From NCBI GenBank assembly GCA_018398765.1, contig JAHBMJ010001023.1, positions 1-36,967 of the forward strand: a stretch of DNA of 36,967 nt, read 5' to 3'. The DNA comes from Chromera velia. Lineage: Eukaryota > Sar > Chromeraceae. Positions within the stretch are counted from its first letter, which is position 1, and every line of letters starts with the position of its first letter. The position numbers and the translations under genes are program-made. This document shows positions 825 to 36,967 of this stretch, piece by piece. The notes under the pieces are model-generated. The model made no database searches. It was given only the letters and a program-made list of their open reading frames with translations, and had not been told where the DNA came from.

Positions 825-2236
825 CTAACGAGATCGACCTAGGGTGGGGTCTGCCTCCACTTCCCACAGCTTGTGCAGGAGGGTACCACAGGTCGTCTCC
901 TCTGTCTCCTCTTTCTTACTCTCCGTCTCCTCCTCCTTCTCTGCCTGTCTGGCAGCGAATGCGCTTTCAATTTCTGCGATCTGCTGCTCTATCAATTCCT
1001 TCTCCCTCTCCACTCTTCTAGAGCCTGGTATACGACTTTTGACTCCTGTCTGGATCGGTCTTTCTGTTTGACGGTGGTTGGGGGAATTAGCGAACTCATC
1101 TTCCTCTTTGCCGTCTCCGTCCCGTCCCTCACTGCACTCACACCCTTCGATGTGATACATGCTTGAGGGGCGGTGCACCCACACGTCATCAGACCTCTCT
1201 CCTGTGGCACGGACCATCTTCGGCTGCCCCTCTGGCCTCCAGATGTCGCTGGTCTCGTCAGAGTCATGACCAAATAACAGGTGTTTCGGCTCTCTTTCAT
1301 CTGCTCTCTCTCTCGGCTTCTGAATGATGATAATGTCGCGGTCAAGACAGTCTTTTGCACCATGACCTGCATGCAATGTCCTGCAGAGGAAACACCGTGG
1401 AACTCCCTGAGGATCTCTTTCTCTTTGTCAGTCAGGGGTGGCAGCTTTCGGATGTTGTGTTCTCTGCTTCTGTTTGTCTGCCCCAGTGTACCAATGTCCA
1501 TGGGTGCTAGACCAATGGGATTATATGACATATAACCTCCACCACCGGTCACAGGGGGTGCTTCTGTTGAGGGAAGTGTTCTGGGATGGGTTGCTGCTGC
1601 AGCAAACGAAACAGATGGGTGGGGAACGATTGAGAGTGCTTCCAATGCTGCTCCTACTGCTGCCTCAAGGTTTGCGGGTTTCTTTCTCTTCACTTCCTTC
1701 TGGACGTCTTCGGGAAGACCCTTTTCGTACTGATATACTTTGTCGCTCATGCTCATATCAGGGATGAAGAGCATCTTAGAGATGAAGTTGCTCATGTACG
1801 TCTTGAGATCTGTGCCCGACACTCCCGTATACTTCATCCTGTCCAGTTCATCTCAGTGATCATCACGAGTCCGTCTGTCCTGAAAATATGTCAGCAAGAC
1901 AGTCTAGAGCTCCAACCACGTCGCAGGCGTGTGCCCATTCTTTTCTGTGAGCTTCACAGCTTTCACTGCATCACCTTTGAGGTGGCTGTCGGCTGCACTG
2001 AGCAGCTGCGCATCAGTCATGCCATAGAAGTTGCGGTACTTCTCGCACACCTGGACCCAATCTTCGAATTCCTCAACTGTTCCAGCATAATCGTAGATTG
2101 GTTTGATTACCTTCGCAAAAGCACTGGAAGAAGTGGAATACAAGTGGCCAAGGATCGCTCTCAGCTCAGCAATCTCTGCAGCCTAAGCTTGGTACAAGGC
2201 TTTCAACTCTTCGAATTCTCTGGTGAAACTTTCCAT
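825..2236 (-). pseudogene. Decayed retrotransposon Gag (capsid region plus zinc knuckle)
   Basis: Gag would form the capsid and bind element RNA. The frame starts plausibly at the ATG ending at 2236. It runs through a capsid-like region (residues such as FEDWVQVCEKY and GLPEDVQKEV) to a CCHC zinc knuckle, then an acidic, Glu-rich coiled-coil tail ending at 825. Breaks seen directly: in-frame TAG at 2183-2185, TAG at 1904-1906 and TGA at 1853-1855, plus a one-base loss near 1394 that separates the capsid frame from the knuckle frame. The knuckle reads CFLCRTLHAGHGAKDC, a C-x2-C-x6-H-x4-C spacing rather than the usual x4. Family assignment rests on the capsid-plus-knuckle layout and the flanking LTRs. 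The copy cannot encode an intact Gag. Confidence 0.75.
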
Positions 2237-11218: not shown

Positions 11219-13143
11219 CCGCAGGTCACCCAGGCGGACCACACGTCCTGGGTGACAGACTTGAACGCACTCTGCCTCGAAGGATCAATATGAAGAAGAG
11301 GCTCGGCATCCCAAGGATCGAAAGTGCAGAACCTCCTCTCAACGGCTTCTGCTGCCAGCTTAGCTCTGGGACCTGAATTCTGCTGCTGCTGCTGCTGCTG
11401 CTGCTGTGCCTGCTCATTGCTGCTGGAGGGCAGAGAGAGGTCGAGGAAGGGCAGAGACGGAACTGCGAGATCCCATGTGGGGCGCACAAATCTGCACGGA
11501 CAGATACACAGACAGACAGACAAACAGACAAATTGAGCAACACACAGAAAAAGAAAGAAGCGTGGAAGTGAGACTTGTTTCAGAACGCAGAAATAAGCTG
11601 GCTTTCCGTTATTTGCGAAGAGGAAAGAAAGACAATTGGAAAGAGAACACCCATGGGCAGGGCCGAGAAGCAGCTGGCGGGGAACGAGAGAGACAGAAGC
11701 ATCTACCTCTGTCTGACGGTTTTGTTTTTTTTGCTCGCTTGAATGATCTCGCTACCTCCCTCACCCATCTTTCTGTCTCTCAATTTCTCCGCTCCCTCCA
11801 CACTCCCTTTCTCATCCTGTCACTCTCCCTCTCCTTCCCTCTAACCTCCCGGCCTTCTCGTTCAACATCGCGGCAGTGAAGCCGAAAGTGCTGTTGCTGA
11901 TCCCCAACACGTCTGCCTGCACGCGCACAGGCAGGAAAGAGGGGAAGAGAGAATAAGGGAGAGCGAAGAAATGCAGAAAAGCCCGATTTCCTTTCAGGGG
12001 AGCAGGGCAGGATGAAAGAACGAGAAACCCGAGGCCCCCTTCCGTCCATCCCGGCGGGAAGAGAAGAAACAAAGAAGAAAGAAGCAAAACAAAAAAACAG
12101 AATGCCGAGCAGCAACTCTCTAGACTTAATACAGCCATCCCCTACCCAACAAAGTCGTTTATCAACCTTCAATAATTGAACTAAGGAACCATACACACAC
12201 TTCCCCACAGACGTATCTTATGCTCCATCCCACCTCCCTCCCCTCGTCAAAACCAACGGACCTGCGACATCAACCAAAAATCCGTGTAGAACCCGGCCAC
12301 CCCCTTCGCTTTCCCCTCCAATTCAGGCACCGCTTCCACAAAATCCTCTGCGGACAGACCCAAATCCCCTCCAGACAGGGGGGCAAATTTCCGAAACACC
12401 GGAAGAACGGCATCGAGGTCGTCGCTGCAGATAGCTAGCCGGGGCCTCTCCAGCTGTCCCCACACAGACTCCAGCCACTCCAACCACCACTCAGCAGGAG
12501 TCACAAGCGCAAACGAGGCAGCGCTAAACGTTCTGTAGTCCCCTCTCCGCAACTGCAACACAACCAGCGTCTCCTCTTCAGACACTACAGTGCGGAGGGC
12601 CGTCTCCATCTTGCTCTGCAGTTTTGGGTTGGGTTGGAACAGCTTCCTCCACTGCTCCTTGAAGGGTCTCACCGTCTCTGTGTGGAGCTGGAAGAACCCG
12701 AACACGTCAACACCCCTCAGCCCTCTGCCACTCAACAGAACCTCAGAAGGATCACAAAACACCCCCACTCCTTCACCCCCTGCTTTCTTCTCTGCCAACG
12801 TCAAGGCCTCAGGACAGTCACTAAACACACTCCGGACACCACCCACAAGCTCAAAACACGGAGGTAGCGTCACTGTGGGTGGATTCAGAGGGTTCCCGAA
12901 AAGAGCATTTCCAATCCACTCAGGGCACTGCACGTTTTCTTCTTTCACTCCTCCCAATTGAGCTGCGTACTGAAGGAAGCCGTACTGCAGCACCTGATTC
13001 CCAAAACCCCCCAGCTTCCCGAAGTGGGACATGGTCAGGACATCTCTGCTCTCATCAGACCCTCCAGCGCTGACGGCAGTCTCAGCTGTGGGCTCTCTGT
13101 GGAGGAGGGCAGAGGAGGAACTGGACACGTCCCTCTGAATCAT
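11219..13143 (-). CDS. GT11-like fucosyltransferase (three exons recognised)
   Basis: Predicted to transfer fucose from GDP-fucose to glycans in the secretory pathway. Exon 1 (13143-12262) has GGFGNQVLQY at residues 45-54, RRGDY at 199-203 (donor-binding motif) and ICSDDLDAV. It ends after LMSQ in phase 0. Exon 2 (11916-11846, 71 nt) supplies the third family motif, ISNSTFGFTAAML, and ends in phase 2. Exon 3 starts at 11422 in the matching phase and encodes a polyglutamine tract followed by FCTFDPWDAEPLLH. Its end is unresolved: possible donors lie near 11229 and 11218, otherwise the frame stays open to 10903. The start is uncertain too. ATG 13143 is chosen because the core follows it, but the frame is open to an ATG at 13488, and the intervening segment includes LVCYLGFGLWISLRV, which could be a Golgi signal anchor. 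The exact fucose linkage cannot be told. It diverges from the esterase gene. Confidence 0.82.
11381..11409 (-). repeat. CAG/CTG trinucleotide repeat encoding polyglutamine
   Basis: Eight to nine CAG codons on the minus strand at the start of exon 3 of the fucosyltransferase. They lie between the conserved NST motif and the C-terminal FDPW segment, so the tract forms a linker that GT11 enzymes normally lack. Confidence 0.85.
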
Positions 13144-13838
13144 TTTCCCTTTCTTCACGTTCTGTTCTTCTCTTCCCTTCTTCTGGACGCGTAGTGAGAT
13201 CCACAGACCAAAGCCCAAATAACACACGAGACGACGTCCTCGGACAGAGTGGAATGGATGGTCACTGCACACAAACGGTCGTCGCAATCTTCGCAAAAAG
13301 GAACGATGATCGTCGAATTGAAAAGAGTTGAAGGCATATGCAATGATACCCCGGCCGGCCGCGCCGGCGAGCTCGGGCCGTAGGCCGCGGTACGTACGCG
13401 CGTGCGCGGCCGGACCCCGGACACATGCACCTGGCCGCAGCACAAAAGTCCTATAGTAACAATTGCATGCACACCGATACACGTACATGCCGGAATTGCA
13501 TGTGACTGCTTACTTGAATAGCAGTTTTCGACTGCCCACACCGTCTATATATGTGTAAGAATAGTTCAGCAGACGGCCTCCAAGCAAGCCCCAACGAGCC
13601 ATGCCGACTTTTTGCGTGTTAGATCCCAGCTGTCAATCGAAGTCAGAGTTTGTAGAGATTCAATTATATATAACCCAGTGCTTGACTGCATGTACCGCCA
13701 AGACTCAGAGGGCTTAATTCGGACAAGGAAACTCAACGTTCTGGTGCATACATAAAAGTCCGATATAGAGCCGTTTGATGCAAGCCTCGGAAGCTTTCCT
13801 TCGACTTGCCCAGAAAATCCACTATACAGCTCTTCCCC
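13144..13838. promoter_or_regulatory. Divergent intergenic region with GC-rich palindromic patch
   Basis: This region separates the starts of the minus-strand fucosyltransferase and the plus-strand esterase, so it probably holds both promoters. At 13350-13435 it has a dense cluster of CpG palindromes (GGCCGGCC, GCGCGC, CCGCGG, GTACGTAC) in otherwise moderate-GC DNA. The part up to 13488 is alternatively a 5' extension of the fucosyltransferase. No core promoter element was recognised with confidence. Confidence 0.4.
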
Positions 13839-16406
13839 ATGAAAGCTTCCCTCTATTTCTCACTGCTGTTTTCCGTCCTTCGTCATGCGTCCCCTCTTCC
13901 AATTGATGCAGATGCAATCACAGTATCCGGTTGGAGTCCGATTCCGCCCGATACGTCGACCGTGGCAGCCCGAGGAAAGGCAGGAGGGTTTGAGAAAATC
14001 TTGGTTGAGACAGCGGCTTCAGGAAGAAGAGAGGGGTTCCTCAGGATGCCACAGAAAAAGAAGACAGGGGCTCTTCCTGAAAGCATGCTTCTGGTTTCTA
14101 AGTCTGCTCAGTCAGACTCGGAGACGCTGCTTCCAAAGTTTTCCCAAATCTCTCCACAAGACTCAAAACCCTCCGACTCAAAAAAACCCGCCTTCCCTCT
14201 CTCGACTCTTCCCGTCCTTCCCTCTTTTTCTTCTTCGCCTTCTCAGTCTGCCCCAGCCAAAGAAGATTCCATCCCGCTTGTCCTCTTTCTGCACCCCTGG
14301 ATGCCTCTCGGCGAGAAAGCCAGCTCAGAAAGCGAGAGAGACAGGCAGAGAGTGGAAGAGATAGAGGAGGTAGCGCGTCTGTCCGAGTACGCAGACGCCT
14401 ACGGGTTTGCCCTCGCGTTTCCTGTAGGGCTCAACGGCCTCTTCGGCAACGCAGCATGGAACGCAGGGGAGGGGTGCTGCCAGCCCAACGCCACGGTGAA
14501 CGACGTGGAGTTCCTCGAGAGGTTTGTTGACACCCTCCTCAACCGTGACACACCACCCTCTTGGGGTGCAGAACTGCCCTCCGTCGAGACTGTCTCCTCA
14601 GTGCTTCAAGGATCTGCTTCCCTCCATGGACAGAGGGAGACAAACCTAAGGGGGGGGCTTCGGAGCAGTCAGAAGCCTGAAAAGACAGCAGCAGAAGCAC
14701 AGGAGGCGTTTCCGAGTCCCACTGTGCGGTTAGATGAAAAAAAACCTGTGAGCCTCCGTCTAGACCCGTCTCGGGTTTTTGCCTTTGGGTTTTCGAATGG
14801 GGGTGGGATGGTGGAGTTGCTCTTGTGCACTTCTGCATCTGTGCGTCTGAGGGGGGCAGTGTCTGTGGGGGGCGCGTCGTTCACAAAGGAGTTTCCGAGC
14901 TGCCATCCGAACGCTTCCGTGAAGGAGGGTGTCGCGGATGTGCTCCTGATTCACGGTCGGCAGGACTCGGTGGTTAGTTGGGAAGCTAACGTGGCAGGTT
15001 TCGTGCCGCACGCGTCGTTGGAAGATGATTTTGACAGGTGGGTGGCAGAGGCGGGTGCCAGGGAGGGGGGGTCATGTGAAGAGAAGGAAGGAAGCGTGGA
15101 GGGAGAGGTGAGTAGGAGATCAGTTGTTTGTGAGGACCCCGGCAAAGGGCCCCGGCAACGCCTAGAGCTCCTCGAGATCCTAGTAGGAGGCCATGAGTGG
15201 TACCGCAGCAATCGGTTTGACTCCTCTGCCTACGCTTTGAAGATCTTTGGCCTCACTTCCCCCGATGCCAGTCCCCCCCCTCCTGTCATCCCAGAAGTCG
15301 AAAGGAATGAAACCCTGAGGGTTGTGAGGAGCTACACCGCGACGTCAGGTAATGGACGCGCCCTTCTTGATCCAGGGAGGAATTATACGTCGTTCAGCAG
15401 AGATCTGAAACCATCAGGCTGTGCCGCCTCTCCCTTTTTCGAAGCGTCTGTGTCGACAGACGCGGACAGTCTGTCTGCGTCTCTGTTCGCAAACGGGAGA
15501 TTGTGGGGGCAGCAGGAAGGTCAGCAGAAGGTCGAATTCGAAGTTGAAGAACCGGAGGGGGGGCGATGGGAGTTGAAAGTCGAAGGACAGTGCAAAGAAG
15601 GAGCAGAGACGTGCGAGGTGAGTGAAGTGCACAAACTACAAGAACGAAGCGGGTGCAGAGACAGACGACAGATGACCTTCACTCCTTTCGAAGTCGTCTC
15701 TCTCCGCTCTCCCCTGAATTCCCTTCTCTTCCTCCCGCCCTCGGAGGAGGACAAGGACATCCCAAACGGGTCTGGAAAGGAAGTGGGGGGGGAGAGTGGA
15801 GACACAGATCCCGTTCTATCTTCTCTGAAGTTCAGAACCCCCACAGCACAAGTCTCTTCTCCTCATGCGTCGAAGAATGTTTCAGAGACCTTCATAGGAG
15901 GGGGATCGAGGGAGAGGGAGAGGGGGACGGCAAGTTGCGTGATCTTTGAGGTGCCTGCAGAGGCCCCGGAGTATCAGATCACAGGAGCCCGCGTGTCTGT
16001 AAAAGTCCTCCAAAGCGATTCTCGACCTCCAGTTTCCTTTCCTGAAGCAGTGGAGATCCTGACGGGGTGGGAAGAGGGGGATGTCAGAGGGCGAGTGAAG
16101 GTGAGTGAGTGCGAACAGACGGAAGACACGAGTTTACAATCGGAGGTTTTTGAGGCGGCTGCAGTGAGAGAAGAGATAGAAAGGGGGGAAGAAGATGCTG
16201 AAGAGAGGCACAGAAGCGTCTCTTTCTCCTCCCGTGTCTTTTCGTGCTCTTTCAGTTTTCTGTTTCCCATCGATGCATCGCCTCTTCTCTTCGTTTTAGA
16301 CTATGGAGACTCATTTCGGACCTCTCCAACAACGCTTACGGGAACCATTGACACGTGGATTAGCTTTCAGAAGAAAGATGCCAAAGAAAAGGATATATTA
16401 GTATAA
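13839..16406 (+). CDS. Secreted PHB-depolymerase/feruloyl-esterase-type hydrolase, intronless
   Basis: A serine ester hydrolase (LpqC/CE1-like alpha/beta fold) of 855 residues. ATG 13839 is chosen because it starts a clean signal peptide (KASLYFSLLFSVLRHAS). The family core is visible: LVLFLHPW near 146-155, LSEYADAYGFALAFPVG, WNAGEGCC at 207-214, nucleophile Ser319 in GFSNGGG, Asp376 in HGRQDSVV, and His452 in GGHEWY. That is a complete catalytic triad. A Ser/Pro-rich stretch of about 100 residues precedes the core. An extra loop of about 60 residues sits between the WNAG region and the nucleophile. About 390 residues follow the His, with regularly spaced Cys and possible beta-sandwich segments I cannot name. 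Bacterial relatives are usually about 300-350 residues. The natural substrate (polyester or feruloylated polysaccharide) is unknown. AATAAA at 16450-16455 may be a poly(A) signal. It is intronless, unlike its neighbours. Confidence 0.85.
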   Translation: MKASLYFSLLFSVLRHASPLPIDADAITVSGWSPIPPDTSTVAARGKAGGFEKILVETAASGRREGFLRMPQKKKTGALPESMLLVSKSAQSDSETLLPKFSQISPQDSKPSDSKKPAFPLSTLPVLPSFSSSPSQSAPAKEDSIPLVLFLHPWMPLGEKASSESERDRQRVEEIEEVARLSEYADAYGFALAFPVGLNGLFGNAAWNAGEGCCQPNATVNDVEFLERFVDTLLNRDTPPSWGAELPSVETVSSVLQGSASLHGQRETNLRGGLRSSQKPEKTAAEAQEAFPSPTVRLDEKKPVSLRLDPSRVFAFGFSNGGGMVELLLCTSASVRLRGAVSVGGASFTKEFPSCHPNASVKEGVADVLLIHGRQDSVVSWEANVAGFVPHASLEDDFDRWVAEAGAREGGSCEEKEGSVEGEVSRRSVVCEDPGKGPRQRLELLEILVGGHEWYRSNRFDSSAYALKIFGLTSPDASPPPPVIPEVERNETLRVVRSYTATSGNGRALLDPGRNYTSFSRDLKPSGCAASPFFEASVSTDADSLSASLFANGRLWGQQEGQQKVEFEVEEPEGGRWELKVEGQCKEGAETCEVSEVHKLQERSGCRDRRQMTFTPFEVVSLRSPLNSLLFLPPSEEDKDIPNGSGKEVGGESGDTDPVLSSLKFRTPTAQVSSPHASKNVSETFIGGGSRERERGTASCVIFEVPAEAPEYQITGARVSVKVLQSDSRPPVSFPEAVEILTGWEEGDVRGRVKVSECEQTEDTSLQSEVFEAAAVREEIERGEEDAEERHRSVSFSSRVFSCSFSFLFPIDASPLLFVLDYGDSFRTSPTTLTGTIDTWISFQKKDAKEKDILV

Positions 16407-17526: not shown

Positions 17527-18913
17527 ATGGACGCGGTGAGTGTGCCTATTTGCCTTGATGGTTCCATTCTTGTGTGGAATTGTCTTTCTTTGAAATGACG
17601 CATGGAGTGAATGGAGTGACCTTCATTACCTTATCGAAGGAATTGATGTTGGATAAAACACACCTTCTCAGGATAACAGAAAGGAGGGAGGTGCATGGGC
17701 GTACTGCTATGAAGGTGCGCAGGCTGTCTGTTCCACAGAATAGCATCCGTTTCCCCCTTTCTGTCAGTCACAGAATTCCTCTTGTTCGTGAGCCAGGCGA
17801 CGGGGTTGTTCTTCTCCTCCCTGATGTACGTGCTTCTTCATAGAGGCACGTGTGTGTTCACTTTCGCATGTTGACGGTGCATCCAGAGACATGCGCGTGC
17901 TCCCTTTCGTTCTCTCTCAATTCCCCCTGCTTTTCCCTCTAGCCGCCTTGGAAGAAAGCAGTGAAGTGCGTGGATGGTGATTCAGAATGGAACGAATTGC
18001 ATTTGGCAGAGGGAAACAACGTTGACAGATACGTCTCTGTCGATGTTTTCATGCCAGACGTCGCATTCCTCTCTGCCAGACTGAATGAAGGTGTGTGTAG
18101 TGAGAGAGGAGGTGGCCACGCGGACTCTGTTCAAAAGCATTTCTCGTCGAATTGTTTGATCTCTAGCTGCATGTAATCAGCCGGCAGGCTCCAGGGACCC
18201 TTCAGCAAAAGAAGAAAAGAAGAGGGAAAGGAAAGACGGCAGGGAGAGGTGCACATGCATTGCAACTGGACGCTTTCCGGGTCAGTGAACACTCTCTCAA
18301 ACTTTCTCTCCCCACTGCAGGAAAAAGGGAGGCAGTTGTGGGAAGCTGCCCGAAAAAGCGACATGGACGGAATCCGCCGTCTCCTCCAAGAGGGGGCACC
18401 TGTCAACTGGACAGGAGATTGGGTTCGTCTCTGTTTCCTTCGAGTTTTCCTATCTTTGTCCTGTGAGGGCACTTGACTGACTGACTGCGCATGAACGTCT
18501 GTGAACGAACCTGCCCTGCTGTGTGAGTGTGTTTTTCACTACGCCCTGAGAGACGGCTGCACGTCCCGACTCGTTGAGTTGGCCTTCGGTTGGAGTTTTG
18601 GGTGGCAGGGCACTCGATTCTTTTAAGGTATCTTCCTTCAGTTCTCTCACCACCGTCTGTGCGTTCCCTCTCTTGCTTGAACCTTTCGTTGCCGAGCGAT
18701 CCAGAACTGTGGACACATTCTTGGATGGATGATGCGGATGGATGGGTTGATGGTGTGGATGGATGGATGACCGGATGGGTGGATGTGGGGAGTCACTGGA
18801 GATGATGAGTAGGTGCGCCGGTGTGGCAGCGCGAATCAGTGCATGGAGGCCCGATCGAAGGATGAACCCGTGCACTGAAGCGAATGCTCTGACCTAGTAG
18901 TTTCAGGGTTGTT

Positions 18914-18951
<38 letters not shown>

Positions 18952-21900
18952 TCTCGGTGGCTGCAGGGTGGATGGACGCCTCTCCATTTGGCTGCTCGCA
19001 ATGAGAATGGGACCCCGGAGATGGTTGAGGCTCTGGTGCGGGCGGGGGCAGAAGTTCATGCGAAGACCAACGTGAGTCATGTCGTGTTCATTTTCGGTGA
19101 ATCTTTTCATTCTCTGAGTGTTCAAAGGACATGCATCTGTCGATCTATGAAGAGACAGTTCATGCATGGAGGCCTTCAAGCATTTCCTTTGCATGCGTGC
19201 TTGTTTGGATTGGTTCAGTTGTGTCGTTTTGAATGCCGGCCGGGTCTTTCTTCTGATTTTGATTGTTTGAGTAGAGATTCCGTTTCAGAGGACATGTAAC
19301 TTGAGAGGATCTGGCGCCCGCCGATTCAGAAGCGGGGGGGAGTGTGTCTGCGGAGACGCTCTTGGATGACTTGTGGATGCATAGATGGGTGGATGGATGG
19401 ATGGATGGATGGATGGATGGATGGATGGGTGGGTGGATGGATGGATGATGTTTCAATGACGACGGAAGAAGCTGCCACATGTGTTTGCGTGTCTGTTGGG
19501 GGGCAGACAGCGATTGAATGTCTACAGTTGTTTTGTTTTTTTGGCCTTCAGGTCTGATTTGCTCTTTTCCTTGTTTCCTCTTCTGTTTGTTCTCTTCTCT
19601 TGTTTGTGATCTTCGGAAGAATGACACGGACTGCCTCCGCGGCTATGCAAGCCTGTCATCTCTCCGGCTGTTTTCTGTCATTGCGCCCTGAGCCTCTCTC
19701 CCCGTTTCTGCCTGATGCTTGAACGTTTCTTTTCTCTTGCTAGTTAGTGATCGAGGTATCTTGCCGTATCTTCTCTTTTCGAATCCTCTTGACGGCCTTC
19801 GGTTTTCTTTTTTTTTACGATGCATTTGGTAGGGCCTTCTGCATGTGCTGCAGGAGTCTTCGCTTCCCTTATGACTTCATGTATATGGATGGGTGGATGG
19901 GCGTAGTGAGTGCATGACTGGAGATGATGAGTAGCTGCGCCGGTGTGGCAGCGCGAATCAGTGCATGGAGGCCCGATCGAAGGATGAAGCTGTGCACTGA
20001 AACGAGTTCTTTGACCTTTGATTCAGGTTCAGGATTGGTCTCCCTCTGTGCTTCTCGGTGGCTGCAGGATGGAGAAACGCCTCTCCATTCGGAACCCCGG
20101 AGAACGTTGAGGCTCTTGTGCGGGCGGGGGTAGACGTTCATGCAAAGAACAAGGTGAGCCATGTTGTGATTCGTTTTTTCCTTCTGCTTTCTCCTTTGGG
20201 TTTTTAGTCAGATGACGGAGTTGTGAACAGGCAGGCAGTGCATCGATTCTTTCATGGAAGCCTGCGGGCCCTTCGTGTGCGCATTCGTTCGGTTTGGTCT
20301 CATATGGCTGTTGTTTATTGGTAAAAGTTTGTTAGTAAGCGATGCCCGCTGTTTGGCGTGTTTCGTTCTAGTTAGGGTTTTCTCCGACAAGCAGCCGTTG
20401 GGTTTTCTACCCTCAACATCCCTCAATCACCTTCAGAAGTCCCACTGCACTAGTGCATTTATACTCGGCGGTGTGTAGTTGCGTTTGGATTCATCAACCG
20501 TGCACTTCTTGTCTGTTTTTAATTGCGTCAACCTGGTGACCTTAATTCATGTGTACATGCATGGTTTCTGCGATAAACAAACATGCAATCACAAGCCGCT
20601 TTATGATACTATCGTGACACACTGTTGTCTTCCAGTATTCCCAGGGCTCTCGGACTGCCGCTGATGTTGCTCAAGTGCATGGCAAGAAAGATGTCGCCAG
20701 GAATCTGCGCGACCCCCAATGGTGTGCAAGAATGAGGAGTCGGGAGACGGCTGTCCAGACCGAGACACCCAACCAATCTCGGCCTCTACAGGAGACGGCA
20801 TCAGACATGAAGGACCGTTTTCTCTTCCTTCGTGGAGGAGACAGCGAGGGAGAAAGGCACAACGGGGGGTTGACAGGTCTCCCTGTGCCTCAGTGGACTG
20901 ACCTCCTCTCCGTGTTGGGCTCTCTTTGTTCCCCTCAGCAACTGAGTCTGTCGGATGTGCTCGGACAGGCTCGGACTTCAGTGGTGTCCCTCAAAGAAGC
21001 GACAGAACGCGCAAACGCCTTCCGGGACCATCAGAAGGGGCTCAAACACAAGGTAGCGTCAGCTTCGGCAACAGCAGCACCCCCACCCCCCGTGTCGGAA
21101 GGGGAATCCCTTGACAGAGACTGCCAGCGGGTGGACTGTCTGAGGTCTCTTGAAAGCGCTTTGCGAGGAGGCTCCCGAGTAGCTGAGCAATTTCAGGAAC
21201 TAGCGGGGAGGGGGGAGGTAGAGGACAGACAGAACCTCCCCCGAACCCAGATCCTCGCAGACCGTCTGCAGGCCTCACTGGAAGGGATTGAGGCGGCTGT
21301 CGGCGAGTTTGTCGTTGCCGCATCCTCGCAAGATACCCGTTCCCTCGCAGAGATCGCTCAGTCTGCAGTGACTCTCGCAGAAGGGTGGCAGCGTCGGAGG
21401 AAGGTAGAACTGAAAGCAAAACGGTCAGCAACAGAGGCCTGCATTGCGTGCGTCAGAGAATCTCTCGATCTCCGCATGGAAAGGCTCCCTTCTGCCTGTG
21501 GGGAGTTGGAGAGGGTGGTGGGGGAGGAGGGGAGGTTTAGGGATCTGATGGAGCGACTGGAAGACCCCGTGTCTCCCGAAGGGGGGGCACGGGGGGGGGA
21601 GGGGAGGGGGAAGTATGTGGTGAGAGGAGTGGTAACAGCAGGGCGGGCAGTTCTTGGGCAGGTGCGGGACGTGCCTGTGCTTGAGAAAGAGCTCAGAGAC
21701 GCCCTGCAGGAGGTGGAGGCTGCAGCTGTGGAGTTCCGGGAAGGGGTTGCCTTGGCAAATCCGGAGAGGTTGCAGGAGTGGAGAGAAAGGCTGTCGATGC
21801 TTCTCGAGGCTCAAAAGAAAGAGAAGAAACAAATCCGCAGAAGAGAGCGAGATATCGGAAACGCAATAGACGAAAGCCCCTCAAACGGACAGCAAGCAAA

Positions 21901-23629
21901 AGTAAATGGACTGAAAACAGAGCTCCAACAGCTGCAAGAGCAGGCAGCCACAAACGACTACGCAGCAGCCATCGCCCGTGAGCGTGCTCGTCTGCTCGCC
22001 CTAGCCTCCCTCCACTTCCCTGAGCTCTTGTGGGACGGGGGCGACTTCTTTCGTGTCGCCCGGCAGGATGTGGAGGCAGTCGGGAATCAGGGGGCCCTGC
22101 TGTCTGCTGGGGTCCTTCTGCAAGGCCGGTCCTCTGAACGGGACTTCCGAAACGAGGAGGTCCTGTCTGAGCCCTCTCCGCAGACAGGCAGCCTTGCGAG
22201 GGTGTCGACATGCGAGGACATGCAGGGCATAAAGTGGGTGCTAAAGAGGTTTCAGTTGGGGGCCACAGGGGAGGCTTCAGCAGCAGTCCGACACTTCTAC
22301 CGTCAAGTTTCGATGTTGCACGAGCTGCAGCACCCGCACCTGTGCCCTGTTGTTGCTGTGTGGCAGGAGGGAGAGTACGGGTTTGTGCAGATGCCCTTCT
22401 ACCCGGGGGGGGACCTGGCGGGATGGATGAGGGAGCGGCCTGCAGAGGGGGGAAGAGATGCAGCAGCAAGTCTGCGGTTGGCAGAAGACCTTCTGTCTGC
22501 CCTCTCCTTCCTCCACAACAAAGGAAAGGTGCACTGCGATGTGAAACCGCAAAATCTTTTCCTCACAGAGAGGGGCAGGGGGGTGTTGGGTGATTTCGAT
22601 GGCATCAAGGAAGCCAGTGAGAACGGGCAGTCCGGTGCAACAACCATTCTGCACGTGACTGCTCACTATCTGGCCCCCGAGGTGCGTGCGGGAGCGCCCG
22701 CTTCCCCCAAGAGTGACGTTTTCTCTGCAGGTGTAACCCTTTCTGAGCTGCTGGGAGGGGGTGTGCTCGCAGGGCAGCCTCAGCGGCAGGCTGCCCTTGA
22801 GAGGCTTCTTGTTCGCATGCAGGCAGAGAATCCCTCCGACCGTCCGACTGCCACAGAGGTCCTTCAAGACCGTCTCTTTTCGCAAACAGCTGTGGACGCT
22901 GCACAGTGTGTGACGTGCTTCGAGGTTGTCCTGCAGGACAGGGGGAGTTTGTACGCCTCCCACTCCCCAGATGCCTCGCAACAGCACTTCATGTGTGCCG
23001 ACTGTGTGAACAGACACGTGCAGGCACGGAGCTCGCTTGACCCAGAGTACAGCGACGTGCGTGCCCGGTTCAAGGCCAACGACTGCCGAGTGTCATGCGT
23101 TGCCCCCGGGTGTCCCTCCAACCCGTTTGCCCATGCCGACCTTGCGCGTCTTCTGCGCCCAGAGGTCCTGCAGCAGTGGGAGGGGGCGCGTCTGGAGGCA
23201 GCGGAGGAGAGGGTGCGGGCGGAGATGGAGACAGAATTCGAGGAGAGGCTGCGGAGGGCATTGAGGGAAGATGGGGCACAGAGGAGAGTGAGGGAGATTG
23301 CGGAGGAAATCCTGACCCTGAAGTGCCCCCGTTGCCGTGCAGCTTTTCTTGACTTCAATGGCTGTGCAGCGCTGACCTGTGCCCGTTGCAACTGCGGTTT
23401 CTGCGGGTACTGTCTGCGTGACTGCGGTCACGATGCTCACGGGCATGTTCCGGGATGTCCTCTGGGCGTGGGCATGTTTGTCAGGCAGGAAGAGTGGGAG
23501 CGCGTTCAGAGAGACCGCAAGAGTCGGCAGGTAAGGGAGGTGCTTGGTCGGCTGGGGCAGGAGGACAGAGCGGAGGTTCGGCGGTTGCTTGAGCCTCTGC
23601 TTCGAGAGAATGGGATTGTGATTCCATGA
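17527..23629 (+). CDS. Ankyrin repeat - coiled coil - divergent protein kinase - RBR-like zinc finger fusion
   Basis: A predicted signalling protein of about 1,118 residues. Exons: 17527-17535 (Met-Asp-Ala), 17943-18090 or 18092, 18321-18422, 18967-19071, 20636-23629. Exons 3-5 join in phase 0 and encode ankyrin repeats ([55 protein letters not shown]). Exon 5 continues with a Glu/Arg/Gln-rich coiled coil (about 21000-21980) and a kinase domain (about 22040-22890). Kinase features: lysine in WVLKRF (codon 22244), catalytic loop VHCDVKPQN (Asp codon 22538), DFD in place of DFG (22592-22600), LAPEV, and SDVFSAGV. The C-terminus has an RBR-like module: CVTC...HFMCADC...C, then CPRC...DFNGC..LTC..C..GFCGYC...DAHGHVPGC. 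The first two exons are less certain because the exon 2-3 phases conflict if the better donor at 18091 is used. No glycine-rich loop was recognised. Confidence 0.8.
18722..18785. repeat. (GGAT)n minisatellite in an intron of the ankyrin-kinase gene
   Basis: Imperfect GGAT units lie just upstream of the duplicated exon block. A second array is at 19383-19448 and a short remnant at about 19885-19900. Confidence 0.9.
18915..18946. repeat. (CT)n microsatellite forming the polypyrimidine tract of ankyrin exon 4
   Basis: Sixteen CT units end about 20 nt before the acceptor at 18965-18966. The duplicated block downstream (near 20035-20050) lacks this expansion. Confidence 0.9.
19383..19448. repeat. 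(GGAT)n minisatellite, second array
   Basis: About 16 GGAT/GGGT units in the intron between ankyrin exon 4 and the duplicated exon. Confidence 0.95.
19888..20165 (+). repeat. Duplicated ankyrin exon block (partner 18770-19085)
   Basis: Intron sequence before the exon is shared almost exactly (for example GGTGTGGCAGCGCGAATCAG and GGAGGCCCGATCGAAGGATG), as are the acceptor context TTCTCGGTGGCTGCAG and the donor side GTGAG(T/C)CATGT. The copies are about 1.1 kb apart in direct orientation, with GGAT arrays between them that could have mediated the duplication. Confidence 0.9.
20068..20153 (+). pseudogene. Frame-broken duplicate of the ankyrin exon, splice sites intact
   Basis: A copy of exon 18967-19071 (105 nt) reduced to 86 nt by a net 19-nt loss after CTCCATT. 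The acceptor (GCTGCAG) and the donor (AAG then GTGAGC) are both preserved. If included in the mRNA it would end translation at TAG 20131-20133, before the kinase and zinc modules. If skipped, exon 4 and exon 5 join in phase 0. It is therefore either a silent relic or a poison-type exon. The sequence alone does not tell which. Confidence 0.7.
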
Positions 23630-27104: not shown

Positions 27105-28588
27105 AAGAAATTCAGGGGGGAGAAGGGAGAGTGTGCACATACGTGGATTGACAAAGGACATGAAATGATAGCCAACAAAAAGGTTGGTTCACAGGCTCGC
27201 TGCAAACTTCAAGCAAACCCTGCAGCAACACCCACTTAGCTCGGAACGAAACGACTCATCTACATGCAAAACTGTCCATGTGCTGAATGAAGACACTCGG
27301 ATCGGTTTAAAACAATTCAAGCGGCAAACCGAATACCCCATGCACGAATGTGATCTCTCCACCCAGCCCACCTCTATCACATCTGTCTCTTACTCTCTCC
27401 CAGTCTCCATATTCCCCCCACCCCCCTTACCTACCTCCTGCAGTTTCGACTCCATCACCCTGCAGGTGTCGTTGTAGACTTTGGAGGCCCTGTGGACCTC
27501 GTACTGCAGTTCCTTGATCAGACGGTTCTTAGATCCCAACACCTGCAGGCAGGTAGACAGGCAGGCAGGCAGGGACCAACATCATCATCATCATAGTAGA
27601 CTTCATTACATGGCATCGTCATGGGGTGCGTGGGAGCCTGTGATTCACTTGATTGTTAGAAGAGGGGAAAGTCAAGGGAAGGGGAGCAGAGGGGGACGTG
27701 GTGACACCAGACAGGCACAGCGAATTAAACAAGGAGGGAGGGAGGAAGAAAAAAGCTAGGGAGGGAAGGAAGCTGTCGGACAATGCAAACGAGTTTGTTT
27801 CCCTTTTCTTTCCTCGCTCCTCCCTCTCTTCTTTCGTGTTTCTTCCTGCCTGTACTTCTTCAACCCCCCTTGCAAGGCACTCACCTGTTCCAGTTTCCCG
27901 GCGATGTTCTCGATCACCTCAGGTGCAAGCTGGGCGTTCCTCAGGACTTCGTCTAGCTGTCCTTGCTGCAGGCAGGCAGGATGGAGGGAGGGAGGAAAAG
28001 AAGGCGAAACAGAGCACGGAGAGAAGTCAAGTGACAGAAGAAGAAACGGTGTGATGATGTCCCTTTTTAGCGCTTTTTCATTTTTGGTTTAAACAAAGGA
28101 ACGAGTGCGGGCAGAAAAAAACGTCAGATGCAATCCGCTCACACAGTGAGTGACAGACAGAAACAGGGAATCGTCCATCGAATGGCCCCCCTCCCGCCCA
28201 CTTCCCCCCGCGGGCACGCACCTTCTCGTTCATTGCCGCTGTGAGAAGGTCCAGCTTCTTCTCCAAGACCACGTTCTTGAACTCTGCTTTCCTCCTGATC
28301 TCACGGACCTGCAGGCAAGAATGCAGGAAGAGAGAAGCAGGCAGGCAGGCACACAGATAAATAGTGAGAAAGAGCGAACAAAGCGATGTTTCAAAGAAAG
28401 TCAATGCACATAAACCTTTAAATTCGGATAGTTATCCGTGCAAGACTAGCTATCAAACACCTAATTGCCTGCCTGTCTGTTCTCCTTCCTTCCCTTCGTC
28501 CTGTACCTCTAGAGCCTTTCCAAACTCCCCCCCCCCGACTGACCCCCTTGTTGAACCGCCTGTACAGCTCGTCCCTTTCCTTCTCGAC

Positions 28589-28626
<38 letters not shown>

Positions 28627-31600
28627 ACAGAAAGGGAGAGAAAGAGAAAGAACGAGGCTCGGCAAGGCAAAGTTGACTCTGCAGCTATGGGCAGATAAAA
28701 AGCGAAAGGAGCGCGCAGACTCCAGCATGAGCAGAAACAGATGCAGCCAGGAGAGGCGGCAGGCGGACAGAGAGACTTCTGGGAATACGGAGAGAAAGAA
28801 ACGAAGATGGAGAAGGGAAAGAGTGAAAGCGGAGCAAAATCAGCGAAATCGAAGATTGTATAAACACACAGAAGAAAAGATAGATGCACGCATAAAGGGG
28901 TGTAAGGCCCTTTCATCGAATAATCAAATGTGCAATAAATAAATGTCACCATGCGTACAGAGAGGGGACCAGAGAAGTTCTGGTGGCATGACCAGAGAGG
29001 AGAATGGGAATTGCGCACACACTCATTCCCCCAGTCACCTGCTCCCTCATTGATTCACCAAGTCACTCACCTTTCTGAACCTCTCCTCCATCGTTCTCAG
29101 TTCTCCCTTGGCCTCCTGCAGGCAGACAGACAGACAGCAGAGTGAAATGGGAAAAGAGAAGGGAGGGACAGAAAGGAAAAGATCCAGTCACTCTACTGCT
29201 TGAAGATCACAGATGCTTTGAAGCACACACAGACACAAGGCAGGGAGGGAACACAAGGACGACAAGAAATGTCAATTTCAAGACACGCTCATGCGCACAA
29301 TGACTCACATGACGAGCATCTTTCCCTTCTCTGTTTTCCCCCCCTTCCATCTCCCTCTACTCGACCCACCTTGATTTTTTCGTCCAGTTGCGAAGACCTC
29401 GCCTTCAAATTTTTCAATGCCATCTTGTCCTGCATGGCGGATATTGGAAGAAAAAAAAGGGGATAAAGTGAGTGAAGAGAGCGAGCATCCGGAGCTCATC
29501 AGGGAGGGAGGCCGATCCTCATTTCTTTGCGCGAATGGGAAGTCTGTCCGTCGGTTTGTTTCCTTTCCTTTCCTTTCCTCATGGGCTCCTTCGGGAGTGA
29601 TTCTCACTTTGTGTGTCGTCACATTCTTCTTTCTGGGTCTTTCTTTGTGTCTGCCTGCGTCTCTCTCTGACGGCCTTCTGTTCGCTGACAGCCATCATCT
29701 AATTTCTTTCTGAACGGAGCGCTGTCAGTACACACTGACAGAAGCCGACCGGGAGGCCACCATCATCACGAAGAAAAACCCCAATGGATCCTAACCTGTC
29801 TGTCTGCCTGCTCGTTTGTGTCTGCCTCTCTGTCTGCTGCTTGTTTAATTGACCTTTGTATACGATTTGAGTTGGTCCTGCAGAAACGCCCTCTTCTTCC
29901 TATTCTCCTGCAGAGGCTCCGCCAGCTCTCTGTTGAGTTGGGTCAGTCTGTGCATCTCCCGTTGGTTCCGTTTCTCCCGGGCCTTCATTTCGGCAATCTC
30001 CTCCTGCAAAAAAATAAATGTACACACGCGCAGAAGGATAATGGGAAGGGGGTCAGAATGCATGTCTGACAAGGAGCTTTCCCTTCCAGTCCGTGTCTGC
30101 GCCAAGAACTGGATACCGATCCGGCATTTTTCTCTTTCTTTTCTCGTGCGTTTGGAGAAGGATTTCATGAAGGTCTCTCTATGCTCACTTCTGCTGCTGG
30201 AAGCATTCGCTCACGATCCGTACAAGGAGACAATTTAAAAACACATGAACGGGGGGATGGGCAAATGAGTGGACAGAATGGACAGAAGACAGAAAGAAAG
30301 AAAAAACGACAGAGAACGAATGCATGAAATGCGATGGATGCGGCTTCTTCCTTCAATTGACTGCAGTACCTTCAACGACTTGATGAGCTGCAGGTTGTCG
30401 TGCGTGATGTCGTTGTAGTAAGCTTTGATCTCGTCGAAGGCGCTCCAGTGATTTCTGCAGACAACCAAGAGTGTCGAGGTTTTTTTGCTTTCGTTTGTAT
30501 TTGATGATTTGATGACTCCATTTGAGGATTTGGCACACCCAGCCCCTTTTTCAAACAGCAAGATCAAATACTCTGAAAACAGAATTGAACTCCTGCGCCC
30601 ACTCTCTCATTTTTGCTTTGTTGACATTCCCAGAGAAACACGCACGGAATTAATTCTTCGCAGTTGAAAGAAACCCACGATCTTTCATGTCTTTGTGACA
30701 CATGCTCTTCCCACGTCAGGCAAAATTCGCTTTGACCAACTGAGAAAAACAGTAACAACTCGCGAACAGAAGAAAGGAAGTATCTTTCTGTCTGCAAGAG
30801 AGAGAGAGAGGCAAAATGAATGAATGAACGAATTCGCTACTGACGTTAGAAGGTCCGCGATGTGCTGATTTTTCCTCTCCTCTACTTCGTGGATCTCGAC
30901 CCTCCTCCGCAACTCCAGCTCCTCAGCGAGTTGCTTCACCTGCACGCGTGTACACACATACACAAACACACATACACAAACAAACGCATTTACTTGTCTG
31001 GATGCGTGAAGGTGTTCCAACACTCTGCTTTCACTCTTTCATCCTGTCAGAACAACACAGAATGTATGGGCATGCCATCGAGCACTTTGCCCGAAAAGCA
31101 TGTTCGTACTCCCCTTTCCTTCCCTTCCTTCCTGCCTTCACTCCTTCATGTCTGCAGCCGGTGTGCCATTCTTTCTGCGTTTTGAATCAAAACATCTTCA
31201 CGGTTCCTCTGGGTTGAACTGAAGACGCGCTTTCCTCAGCCCACTTTCTCTTTTCCCTCCCCTAACGCCTATCTATCCGACTGCCTGTCTGCCCGTCTGT
31301 CCCACCGACCTGCTCCTGGAACTCTGCCTCCAATTCCTGGTGCTCTTTTTGGAACTTTTGGCGCATCTTCTGGAGGGCCCCTTGGTGCTTCTGCAGATGG
31401 AAGGGGGGGGAAAGGGAGAGAGGCAGGAGGGCTGGACTCTAACTTCGATTGTTGCTTTTCTGCGGATTTGTGAAGTGATCTGTAGATTTCTTTCTTTCTT
31501 CTTTGCTTGCTCCAAAAGAGAGAAGAGCAAGCAAGGCCTCAGACACGGACGGCAAAGAAGAGAAAAGAAACGGGAGAAAAGCGCAACTCCTCCGTCCAAC

Positions 31601-34532: not shown

Positions 34533-36967
34533 ATGGAGCCAGGAACAGGCATGCTCCCGAACAAGTTCGTCACTGCCCCTGGGCACGTTGAGGTCAGTTC
34601 CTTGTGCACACCGTTGGACAGACGGCCAGTGGATATGCGCACGTACCGGCTGTCCCAACCAACTTTCCGTATCTCCCTGATCAACCTCTCCTTCCGGCTT
34701 TTCCCCTGCCCTCCGCTCCCCCGTTCCTGCAGGAACGTCTTGTGAGGGTCCCTCAGGTCCAGTATGAGGACAGAGAGGTCCCGGGGGAGGAGAGGATTGA
34801 GGTGAGGGAAAGGATCGTGGAGAAGATCCAGAAGGTTGTGCAAGAAAAGGTCGTCTACGTTCCCAAACCCGTCATCGAGGAGAGAGTCGTGGAGGTCCCA
34901 AAGGTGAGTCTCTGGGCTTTATCGTGACTCAATTCATGAGCACATCGATCCAAAAAGGCAAAGGAAAAGTGCGTGACTTTGGCTTTCACTTTGCAATTTC
35001 GATCTGTCTGTCCCTCCATCCATCTGAACAAACCCTCACGCCAGTCAACGAAGGGACCCGTCTATCGATCTCTGTTGTAATCCTTTTATTGGAATGCTCG
35101 GATCTTATTTCTTGAAGCACTCCTGTTGATGTCTTGAAAGCGTTGGTGTGCTCTCCCTGCTGGACCTTGAGCGTTTCTTGGTCGCCTTCTTGCTCTTTCC
35201 TTCCCTTCTGTTTGAATCCACCTCCCTCCACTGTCTCTGCCACCACTGACCCGTCTATTGAGCTGTAGTTGCACTGATCAGCCTTTGCATACTAGAGGTG
35301 CATTGGAGAGCACTTGGTTTTGCTCTGTGATGTTTCGTTCGGCTTGCCAGTGACTAGAGACTGGGATTGAGAGTCCACTTGCGTTTCGACAAAGATTGTT
35401 TTTTCTCCCACCCTGCCGTTCGCTTGGCCCTGCTTTGTTCCTTAGTAACATGTTCGTGCACGTATAGGGTTCTGCCTCCATCCTCTTGTGCTCATGTATG
35501 TCGCTCTACTACTACCGTCTTGCCTGCCTGCCTGTTTGCCTGTCTGCCTGTGTGCAGCCTGAGTTCATCGAGGAGATCATAGAGGTCCCCCAGATCCAAT
35601 ACACCACGAGGGAGGTGGAGGTGTGGACCCCCCAGTGGATGGAAAAGGTCAAGTACGTCCCCAAGGTGGAGGTCCAGTGGAGAGAGGTGCCAAGACCCAG
35701 ACTGATGGTCTCAGAAAAAACCGTTGAAGTGCCCAGACAAGAAATCAGACACGTCAGTCAGGGAAGCAGCGATGTGATGCAGATAGGGAGACAAAGAGGC
35801 AGATGGACAGAAAGATACGCAGGAGAAGAGTTGTTTGCTTGCATGTCTGCCGTGGCGTACGATCTACCGGTAGGATCTGATTCCTTCATTTTGTTGCTGT
35901 ACTTTTTGTGCGCTTTCTTGTCTCTCCATGGAAGGCTTCCACCTCAGCCGTCCCTGTTCTCTTCATCGTGTCTTTTGGCTCGCTCTGATCTCGCCATTAC
36001 CCTGTGCCTCTGTGTGATTCAGGTTTACGTCGAGAAGGAGGTCGAGGTGCCAGTGGTACAGCATCAGTATGTGTACAAAGACGTTCCAGTGCCACAGAGA
36101 GTCCACCGCACTACAGCCTCGATGCCGGAGCTGCCCCCAATGCCTCCCATGCTCCCCCCACCTCCCCAACAAGTGCTCGTCAAAACACTCCCCCCTCCCC
36201 CCATGCCCCCTCCCACTACAGTCCTCCCAGGGCCCGTCAGAGAACTGCCTCCCCCCCCTATGCCCATGCCCCCCCCCACGATGATGGCACCTCCACCTGC
36301 AAAGATTGAGACAGAGATCCCACCTCCCATGATGGCATTCCCACCCCCACAACCTATGCCCATGATGATGGCACCGCCCCCCCCTGGACCCGCCCCTCTC
36401 CTCAGCACATTGGGGGGAAACCCGAATCCCCTGTCAACCTCACAGGCGCCTCCTCTTCCGATGCTTGCTCCTCCTCTGTTGAACAAATCACAACTGGTAG
36501 TGGGGGAACCCAGAGCGCTTCCTTCGCCTCTGCCCGCACCGGAGGGACCTCCTGCAACCGTCTCCTACATGCCCCCCCCGCCCATGTCCACCTTCGCACC
36601 CCCACCCGGGCCTCCGATGCCTCTGATGGCGTCTCTTCCCCCTCCCTCTATGCCTCCTCCTCCAATGCTCGAGAAGCCCCCGATGCCTCCGATGATCATG
36701 ACAGGGCCTCCCATGGAACCACCAAAGATGCCCATGCCCACATCACCCCCTCCTCCTATGATGATGCCCCCCCCTCCGGTGCCCCCCCCCGTTCCTATGC
36801 CCATGCCCATGCCACCCCCCTCAATGGTCATGACAGGCCCGCCTGCAGAGCCGCCGAAGATGCCACCCCCCATGCCCGTCTCTCCGCCTCCTCCTATAAT
36901 GATGCCCCCGCCACCAATGCCCCCCATGCCAACAATGAGCCCCATGCCCCCCCCCGAGTTCGAGAAG
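34533..36967 (+). CDS. Alveolin (inner membrane complex / cortical alveolar network protein), 3' end beyond window
   Basis: A structural protein of the filamentous network beneath the alveolar sacs. Exons: 34533-34592, 34733-34903, 35558-35752, 36023 to the window end, all joining in phase 0 with GT-AG ends. ATG 34533 begins a short leader (MEPGTGMLPNKFVTAPGHVE). Exons 2-4 encode the alveolin core: charged Val/Pro repeats such as VRVPQVQYEDREV, KVVYVPKPVIEERVVEVPK, IIEVPQIQY and VYVEKEVEVPVVQHQYVYKDVPVP (shown here in part). From about 36135 the frame is a Pro/Met-rich tail of about 275 residues, open to the last base. The tail includes a repeated block (TGPP.EPPKMP...SPPPP.MMPPPP) at about 36688-36790 and 36828-36930. 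The core is diagnostic of alveolates. The tail resembles proline-rich linkers and may bind profilin-, SH3- or WW-type partners (inference). It is divergent from DRC4. Confidence 0.94.
36135..36967 (+). repeat. Proline/methionine-codon low-complexity tract with internal ~140-bp repeat
   Basis: CCC/CCT/ATG-rich coding DNA. ATCATGACAGGGCCTCCCAT at about 36693 recurs with changes as GTCATGACAGGCCCGCCTGC at about 36828, each followed by similar CCGAAGATGCC and TCCTCCTAT(G/A)ATGATGCC segments. The long Gly-rich open frames on the opposite strand are shadows of this composition. Confidence 0.8.

Follow-up and report, generated by a model that had tools for sequence, protein, structure and literature searches.

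We analyzed a 36,967-nucleotide (nt) stretch of the Chromera velia genome (contig JAHBMJ010001023.1; this whole stretch is called the window below), which carries a gene that joins ankyrin repeats, a protein kinase domain and two zinc modules in a single predicted protein. The gene lies at 17527-23629 on the plus strand. In a hand-spliced model it has four exons, totaling 3210 nt and encoding 1069 amino acids (aa) with zero internal stops. Its exons, a broken exon copy and the kinase features are as follows:

17527-17535 (+): exon 1, start codon and MDA, GT donor in phase 0; matches by eye the N terminus of the paralog model P0003 (MAE-RKGRQL)
18321-18422 (+): exon 2, first ankyrin-like unit, AG/GT borders, phase 0; the Ank_2 and Ank_4 stretches of the spliced N terminus start here
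18967-19071 (+): exon 3, ankyrin repeat, best PF00023 stretch; Chromera ankyrin hidden Markov model (HMM) E 3e-17
20068-20153 (+): frame-broken relic of an ankyrin exon, 86 nt, resembling exon 3 with a 19-nt deletion; HMM match in another frame, E 5e-9
20636-23629 (+): exon 4, 2994-nt open frame with ankyrin cap, presumed helical coil, kinase, RING1, linker helix, Rcat, C-terminal helices and stop
22187-22768 (+): protein kinase domain (Pfam span), exon residues 518-711; PF00069 Pkinase E 1.1e-28
22304-22306 (+): Gln at the alpha-C Glu position; in alignment A2 (32 rows) Glu 19, Gln 8, His 2, Thr 1, Tyr 1, gap 1

All three introns are in phase 0 and have GT-AG ends. Exon 4, for which an initial annotation made from the sequence alone had given the same length, is intact over its 997 codons and sits in an open reading frame (20618-23629, +) of 1003 codons without a stop; the kinase and the zinc modules are contiguous within it. 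The order of domains in the 1069-aa protein is ankyrin repeats, a presumed coil, the kinase and then the two zinc modules, RING1 and Rcat. Both the ankyrin repeats and the kinase named in the initial annotation were recovered with Pfam, the former by PF00023 on the hand-spliced N terminus (47.4 bits against a cut-off of 21.1, E 1.5e-12) and the latter by the Pkinase match tabulated above, with the catalytic motifs located. The exon layout resembles that of the paralog on C1772 (model P0003, UniRef), in which ankyrin units lie in separate exons and are followed by the same long exon, opening with a similar ankyrin cap.

The relic exon, if spliced in, would stop translation at codon 94, and on the simplest reading of the sequence it is skipped in splicing. 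The near-identical stretches shared by the introns before exon 3 and before the relic (18806-18880 and 19924-20000, found by eye) suggest that exon 3 was copied along with its intron.

The RING1-helix-Rcat module

The C-terminal part of exon 4 contains the following features:

22907-23113 (+): RING1 ligand span
22952-22954 (+): Tyr (codon TAC) at the third RING1 zinc-ligand position; of the 32 rows of alignment A1, 30 have Cys in this column, the window has Tyr and P0006 has Ser
23159-23314 (+): 52-residue helix in place of IBR/BRcat (helix 100-151 of the predicted model), in a linker without Cys
23324-23458 (+): Rcat (RING2-like) zinc domain
23363-23365 (+): proposed catalytic Cys (codon TGT), exon residue 910, protein residue 982
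23486-23608 (+): C-terminal helical extension (model helices 209-230 and 233-249), also matched in IBR-containing relatives

The spacing C-x2-C-x9-C-x4-C-x2-C-x4-C-x2-C was found in 0 of 20000 shuffles of the exon 4 protein. Structure prediction of the module gave a predicted local distance difference test score (pLDDT) of 92.5. The predicted fold of the first zinc module resembles RING1 of Parkin and ARIH2, and that of the second resembles RING2 (Rcat), the catalytic domain of RBR ligases. When the model was compared with known structures by VIA-align, 47 of the 50 rows shown were RBR E3 chains, which cover RING1 and, for RNF216, the Rcat part. A profile of the Rcat built from 14 relatives had Cullin-9 as its top match (3.5e-5), followed among others by ARIH1 (0.0019) and parkin (0.0026), and in this profile search the conserved Rcat Cys aligns with the Cys of the "GC" motif that is catalytic in ARIH1. 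The second module is also identified as Rcat by its position, because in five KH/CCCH relatives (P0138, P0142, P0146, P0147 and P0148) the same Rcat and C-terminal extension follow RING1 and a Pfam IBR.

The proposed catalytic Cys is invariant. It is kept in 33/33 relatives from outside Chromera and in all 26 Chromera segments that cover the column, the window included (29 were aligned; three do not have that part). These counts come from HMM-aligned columns, which replaced a regular-expression motif census that was circular for the Cys. The residue is kept even in four Chromera copies that have lost a zinc ligand (L013, L014, L016 and L036). Thus, the assignment of codon 23363 to the RBR active-site position in the initial annotation is borne out by the TGT codon, its invariance and the RING2/Rcat-like fold. 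Structure prediction and profile search likewise answered the concern that the C-terminal cluster might belong to some unrelated zinc fold with no free Cys: both gave an Rcat-like fold with a non-ligand Cys.

There is no IBR/BRcat between RING1 and Rcat. The linker of the window protein is 70 aa long with 0 Cys and 1 His, and each of 41 database rows, among them the Chromera models, has 0-2 Cys in the corresponding linker. As a control, the genome was searched with Pfam IBR: the 7 matches all lie at 5 other loci, outside the module loci. The module also differs from RBR ligases next to the active site. Two sources place a His two residues after the catalytic Cys in Parkin, HHARI and HOIP (PMC3940038, PMC5413910), and one of them describes this catalytic His as conserved in a number of RBRs (PMC5413910). 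At this +2 position, all 33 database relatives have Ala, as do 22 of the 26 covering Chromera segments; the other four have Ser, Thr, Lys and Val. Of the RBR-type module described in the initial annotation, therefore, RING1 and an Rcat with a non-ligand Cys (by position and fold) stand; the points against it are the missing IBR/BRcat, Ala in place of the catalytic His and the loss of one RING1 ligand in this copy. Because the middle domain is absent, we class the module as an RBR variant and not as a member: it is a RING1-helix-Rcat, RBR-like in its proposed working but without one defining feature of the family. The absent IBR, the family to which the gene belongs and the blemishes of this copy had all been overlooked in the initial annotation.

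An extra Cys in the RING1 region (23084-23086, exon residue 817), four residues before ligand 7, occurs in 20 of 25 covering Chromera segments and in 0/33 other relatives.

The family, its proposed mechanism and alternative readings

Searches of the 178-Mb genome gave at least 44 matches to the C-terminal module, which merged to at least 38 loci. At least 23 Chromera loci, broken copies included, have a kinase match no more than 800 nt upstream on the same strand; the kinase matches were picked by eye from 113 scored of 735 candidates, so these counts are lower bounds. Several copies contain stops or split frames (L025, L030, L034 and C1772). In C1772, the closest paralog, the module (locus L053, 6703-7448 on the gene strand) lies in two overlapping frames just before the Rcat, i.e., a presumed frameshift in the assembly or the gene.

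The kinase-module order extends beyond Chromera. It is found in Hondaea (P0013, with leucine-rich repeats [LRRs]), in Balamuthia (P0134, with one LRR match just below cut-off) and in P0123, a protein with a ubiquitin-like domain. Kinase and zinc module also occur in one protein in transcriptome-derived relatives, namely P0014, P0135, P0143 and P0145 (mmetsp) and the same P0123 (eukprot TRINITY). The initial annotation knew of no named protein with this order of domains; the order ankyrin-kinase-RING1-Rcat holds, but it is not confined to a single gene, as a search for it elsewhere found ankyrin repeats, kinase and zinc module in P0139, one of the environmental proteins with the kinase-module order. 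The fusion is thus a member of a large Chromera family and of a wider protist family, not a one-off. A scan of viral_contigs with A3 gave 76 pattern matches, none of which was confirmed. In the database protein P0124, which has no kinase match, the same RING1-helix-Rcat module comes after ZNFX1-like helicase domains.

In a kinase tree, the fusion kinases fall into two clades. One, of 23 rows (SH-aLRT 99), unites those of Chromera (the window included), Hondaea, Balamuthia and other relatives; the second contains 13 rows (SH-aLRT 100; 14 rows with P0132, at 90). The tree was made by a quick method with no bootstrap and no eukaryotic TKL outgroups, and leaves out P0061-P0120. Given the lack of those outgroups, it is only plausible that the second kinase clade was fused to the module independently. 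The Rcat tree is poorly resolved at depth, and fits an IBR that was lost once, lost several times or gained.

On balance, we favor the reading that the protein is a kinase-coupled, multidomain signaling E3 that would pass ubiquitin through Cys982 without a BRcat, as judged from its sequence and predicted structure. In such a mechanism, the ankyrin repeats would hold a client, and the kinase would phosphorylate either the client or its own ligase module, thereby marking the one or switching the other. An E2~ubiquitin would dock on RING1, and ubiquitin would move from the E2 to Cys982 in the Rcat and then to the client, as in RBR ligases. The long helix would bridge RING1 and Rcat, the role that BRcat fills elsewhere. 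We infer from this arrangement, as did the initial annotation, that one protein could phosphorylate and ubiquitinate the same ankyrin-bound client. More tentatively, the family may be widespread among protists and use RING1-to-Rcat transthiolation without BRcat and the +2 His, in a module that was joined to two kinase clades; phosphorylation and thioester ligation would then be combined in one chain with swappable, client-binding N termini.

Several other readings were weighed. The one that survives best, although we consider it unlikely, is that this copy is a decaying paralog within an otherwise functional family. The frame-broken ankyrin exon, the broken copies at other loci and the RING1 Cys-to-Tyr change would all fit decay. 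The ligand loss was read from alignment A1, the column of the HMM alignment being unusable through an insertion in the window copy. In a check for any Cys between RING1 ligands 2 and 4, 4 of 64 segments had none, and the window accounts for two of these four because it was counted twice; L022 has Ser at the third-ligand position but went unflagged owing to a nearby Cys. The Tyr codon at 22952 is a Cys codon in C1772, so the change is probably younger than the split from that paralog, and a nearby His could stand in for the missing ligand. Against decay, the 997-codon exon is intact and both the Rcat ligands and the kinase catalytic residues are kept. Moreover, omega is low, although the pairwise values include the partner's branch. 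Specifically, the values for kinase, RING1 and Rcat are 0.13, 0.06 and 0.05 against C575 (with dS near saturation for RING1 and Rcat) and 0.11, 0.23 and 0.11 against C1613; against C1772 they are 0.12 for the kinase, 0.34 for RING1 (85 codons) and 0.36 for the coil. The value for Rcat and C-terminal extension against C1772, where the frame of that paralog is split, was dropped (22 codons, dS undefined). The gene is under purifying selection.

It is somewhat less probable that the kinase domain is a pseudokinase scaffold, which would bind partners or nucleotide and exert allosteric control of the ligase. The Gln at the alpha-C Glu position, found in 8 of 32 rows including the window, and a poor Gly loop point in that direction. 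However, the predicted domain matches solved kinases (Foldseek, best E 3.8e-15), and the window copy keeps the Lys, the HxD Asp, the Asn and the DFx Asp, with a LAPEV motif and with DFD as its DFG motif. Across the 32 aligned proteins, the Lys is present in 30/30 ungapped rows, the HxD Asp in 31, the Asn in 30 and the DFx Asp in 31. From these residues, the kinase domain of the fusion protein is probably active.

A further reading, to which we give slightly less weight again, holds that the Rcat is now a structural or ubiquitin-binding zinc domain and no thioester ligase, the protein being at most a RING-type E3 or a scaffold. The absence of BRcat and the uniform +2 Ala of the database relatives would be expected under it, but the non-ligand Cys would hardly be invariant in 33/33 and 26/26 rows, nor would the same Rcat be expected to follow RING1-IBR in five relatives.

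Finally, the listed protein P0001, which the window itself encodes, has 965 aa with its first residue inside exon 4, so that splice logic and paralogs are what ties the ankyrin repeats to the kinase in this gene copy. That the ankyrin exons form a separate gene, with the broken exon lying between them and an exon 4 in which the protein starts, is nevertheless very doubtful: all junctions are phase 0 and GT-AG, the ankyrin cap at the start of exon 4 is similar to that of P0003, and ankyrin and kinase domains occur together in paralog models P0003-P0007. Of 20 fetched paralog regions, 17 show one or more ankyrin matches on the strand of the module and upstream of it, and three show none.

Neighboring features

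Elsewhere in the window, the following were observed:

992-1849 (-): possible fragment of a Ty3-type capsid (E 0.0065, below cut-off)
12247-13506 (-): frame with a by-eye resemblance to an alpha-1,2-fucosyltransferase; Pfam gave no match at 0.01
13779-16403 (+): 875-aa frame, weakly matched by Abhydrolase_2 (E 9e-6)
30235-30603 (-) and 28078-28428 (-): GAS (growth-arrest-specific, microtubule binding) matches, E 1e-9 and 0.0021 (the latter below cut-off), perhaps exons of a single gene on the minus strand
35468-36967 (+): IMCp (inner membrane complex/alveolin) domain, Pfam E 8e-9, then a long tail rich in Pro and Met; the frame continues past the contig end

Relation to known systems

With the canonical RBR E3s (Parkin, ARIH1/2, RNF216, HOIP and Cullin-9), the Chromera protein shares the RING1 fold, the Rcat fold, the position of the active-site Cys and the placement of RING1 before Rcat. 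It differs from them in having one predicted helix instead of IBR/BRcat, in lacking the +2 His and in carrying a kinase in the same chain. ANKIB1 is a full RBR and is not known to have a kinase, and plant KEG (KEEP ON GOING) has an ordinary RING and is not known to have an Rcat. As one review describes it, ANKIB1 shares with the Chromera protein the combination of ankyrin repeats and RBR parts (PMC3940038). KEG likewise combines an E3, a kinase and ankyrin repeats in one protein, and its ankyrin repeats bind substrate (PMC11020294). However, the order in KEG is RING-kinase-ankyrin-HERC2, as opposed to ankyrin-kinase-RING1-Rcat here, and the Chromera protein is not of the KEG type. The KH/CCCH proteins described above have the same Rcat and C-terminal extension but retain an IBR and have no kinase domain listed. 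In P0139, P0122 and others, a kinase from the second clade precedes RING1-helix-Rcat, with ankyrin repeats first in P0139.

A 2014 review reports that no clear case of a protein with BRcat or Rcat on its own had been identified, and takes this as a sign that an RBR needs all three domains (PMC3940038). The RING1-helix-Rcat family is an exception to the suggestion made there that RING1, BRcat and Rcat always co-occur. Among the matches listed in a search of the open-licence literature, neither an RBR without IBR nor a fusion of kinase and RBR was the subject of any paper. The three-domain requirement becomes testable with a natural family that keeps RING1 and Rcat and has no BRcat; if its members are active, BRcat would be dispensable and its role regulatory or structural. 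In PINK1 and Parkin, according to the same review, the coupling of a kinase to an RBR is spread over two proteins (PMC3940038). The kinase fusion described here would be a one-chain version of that type of coupling.
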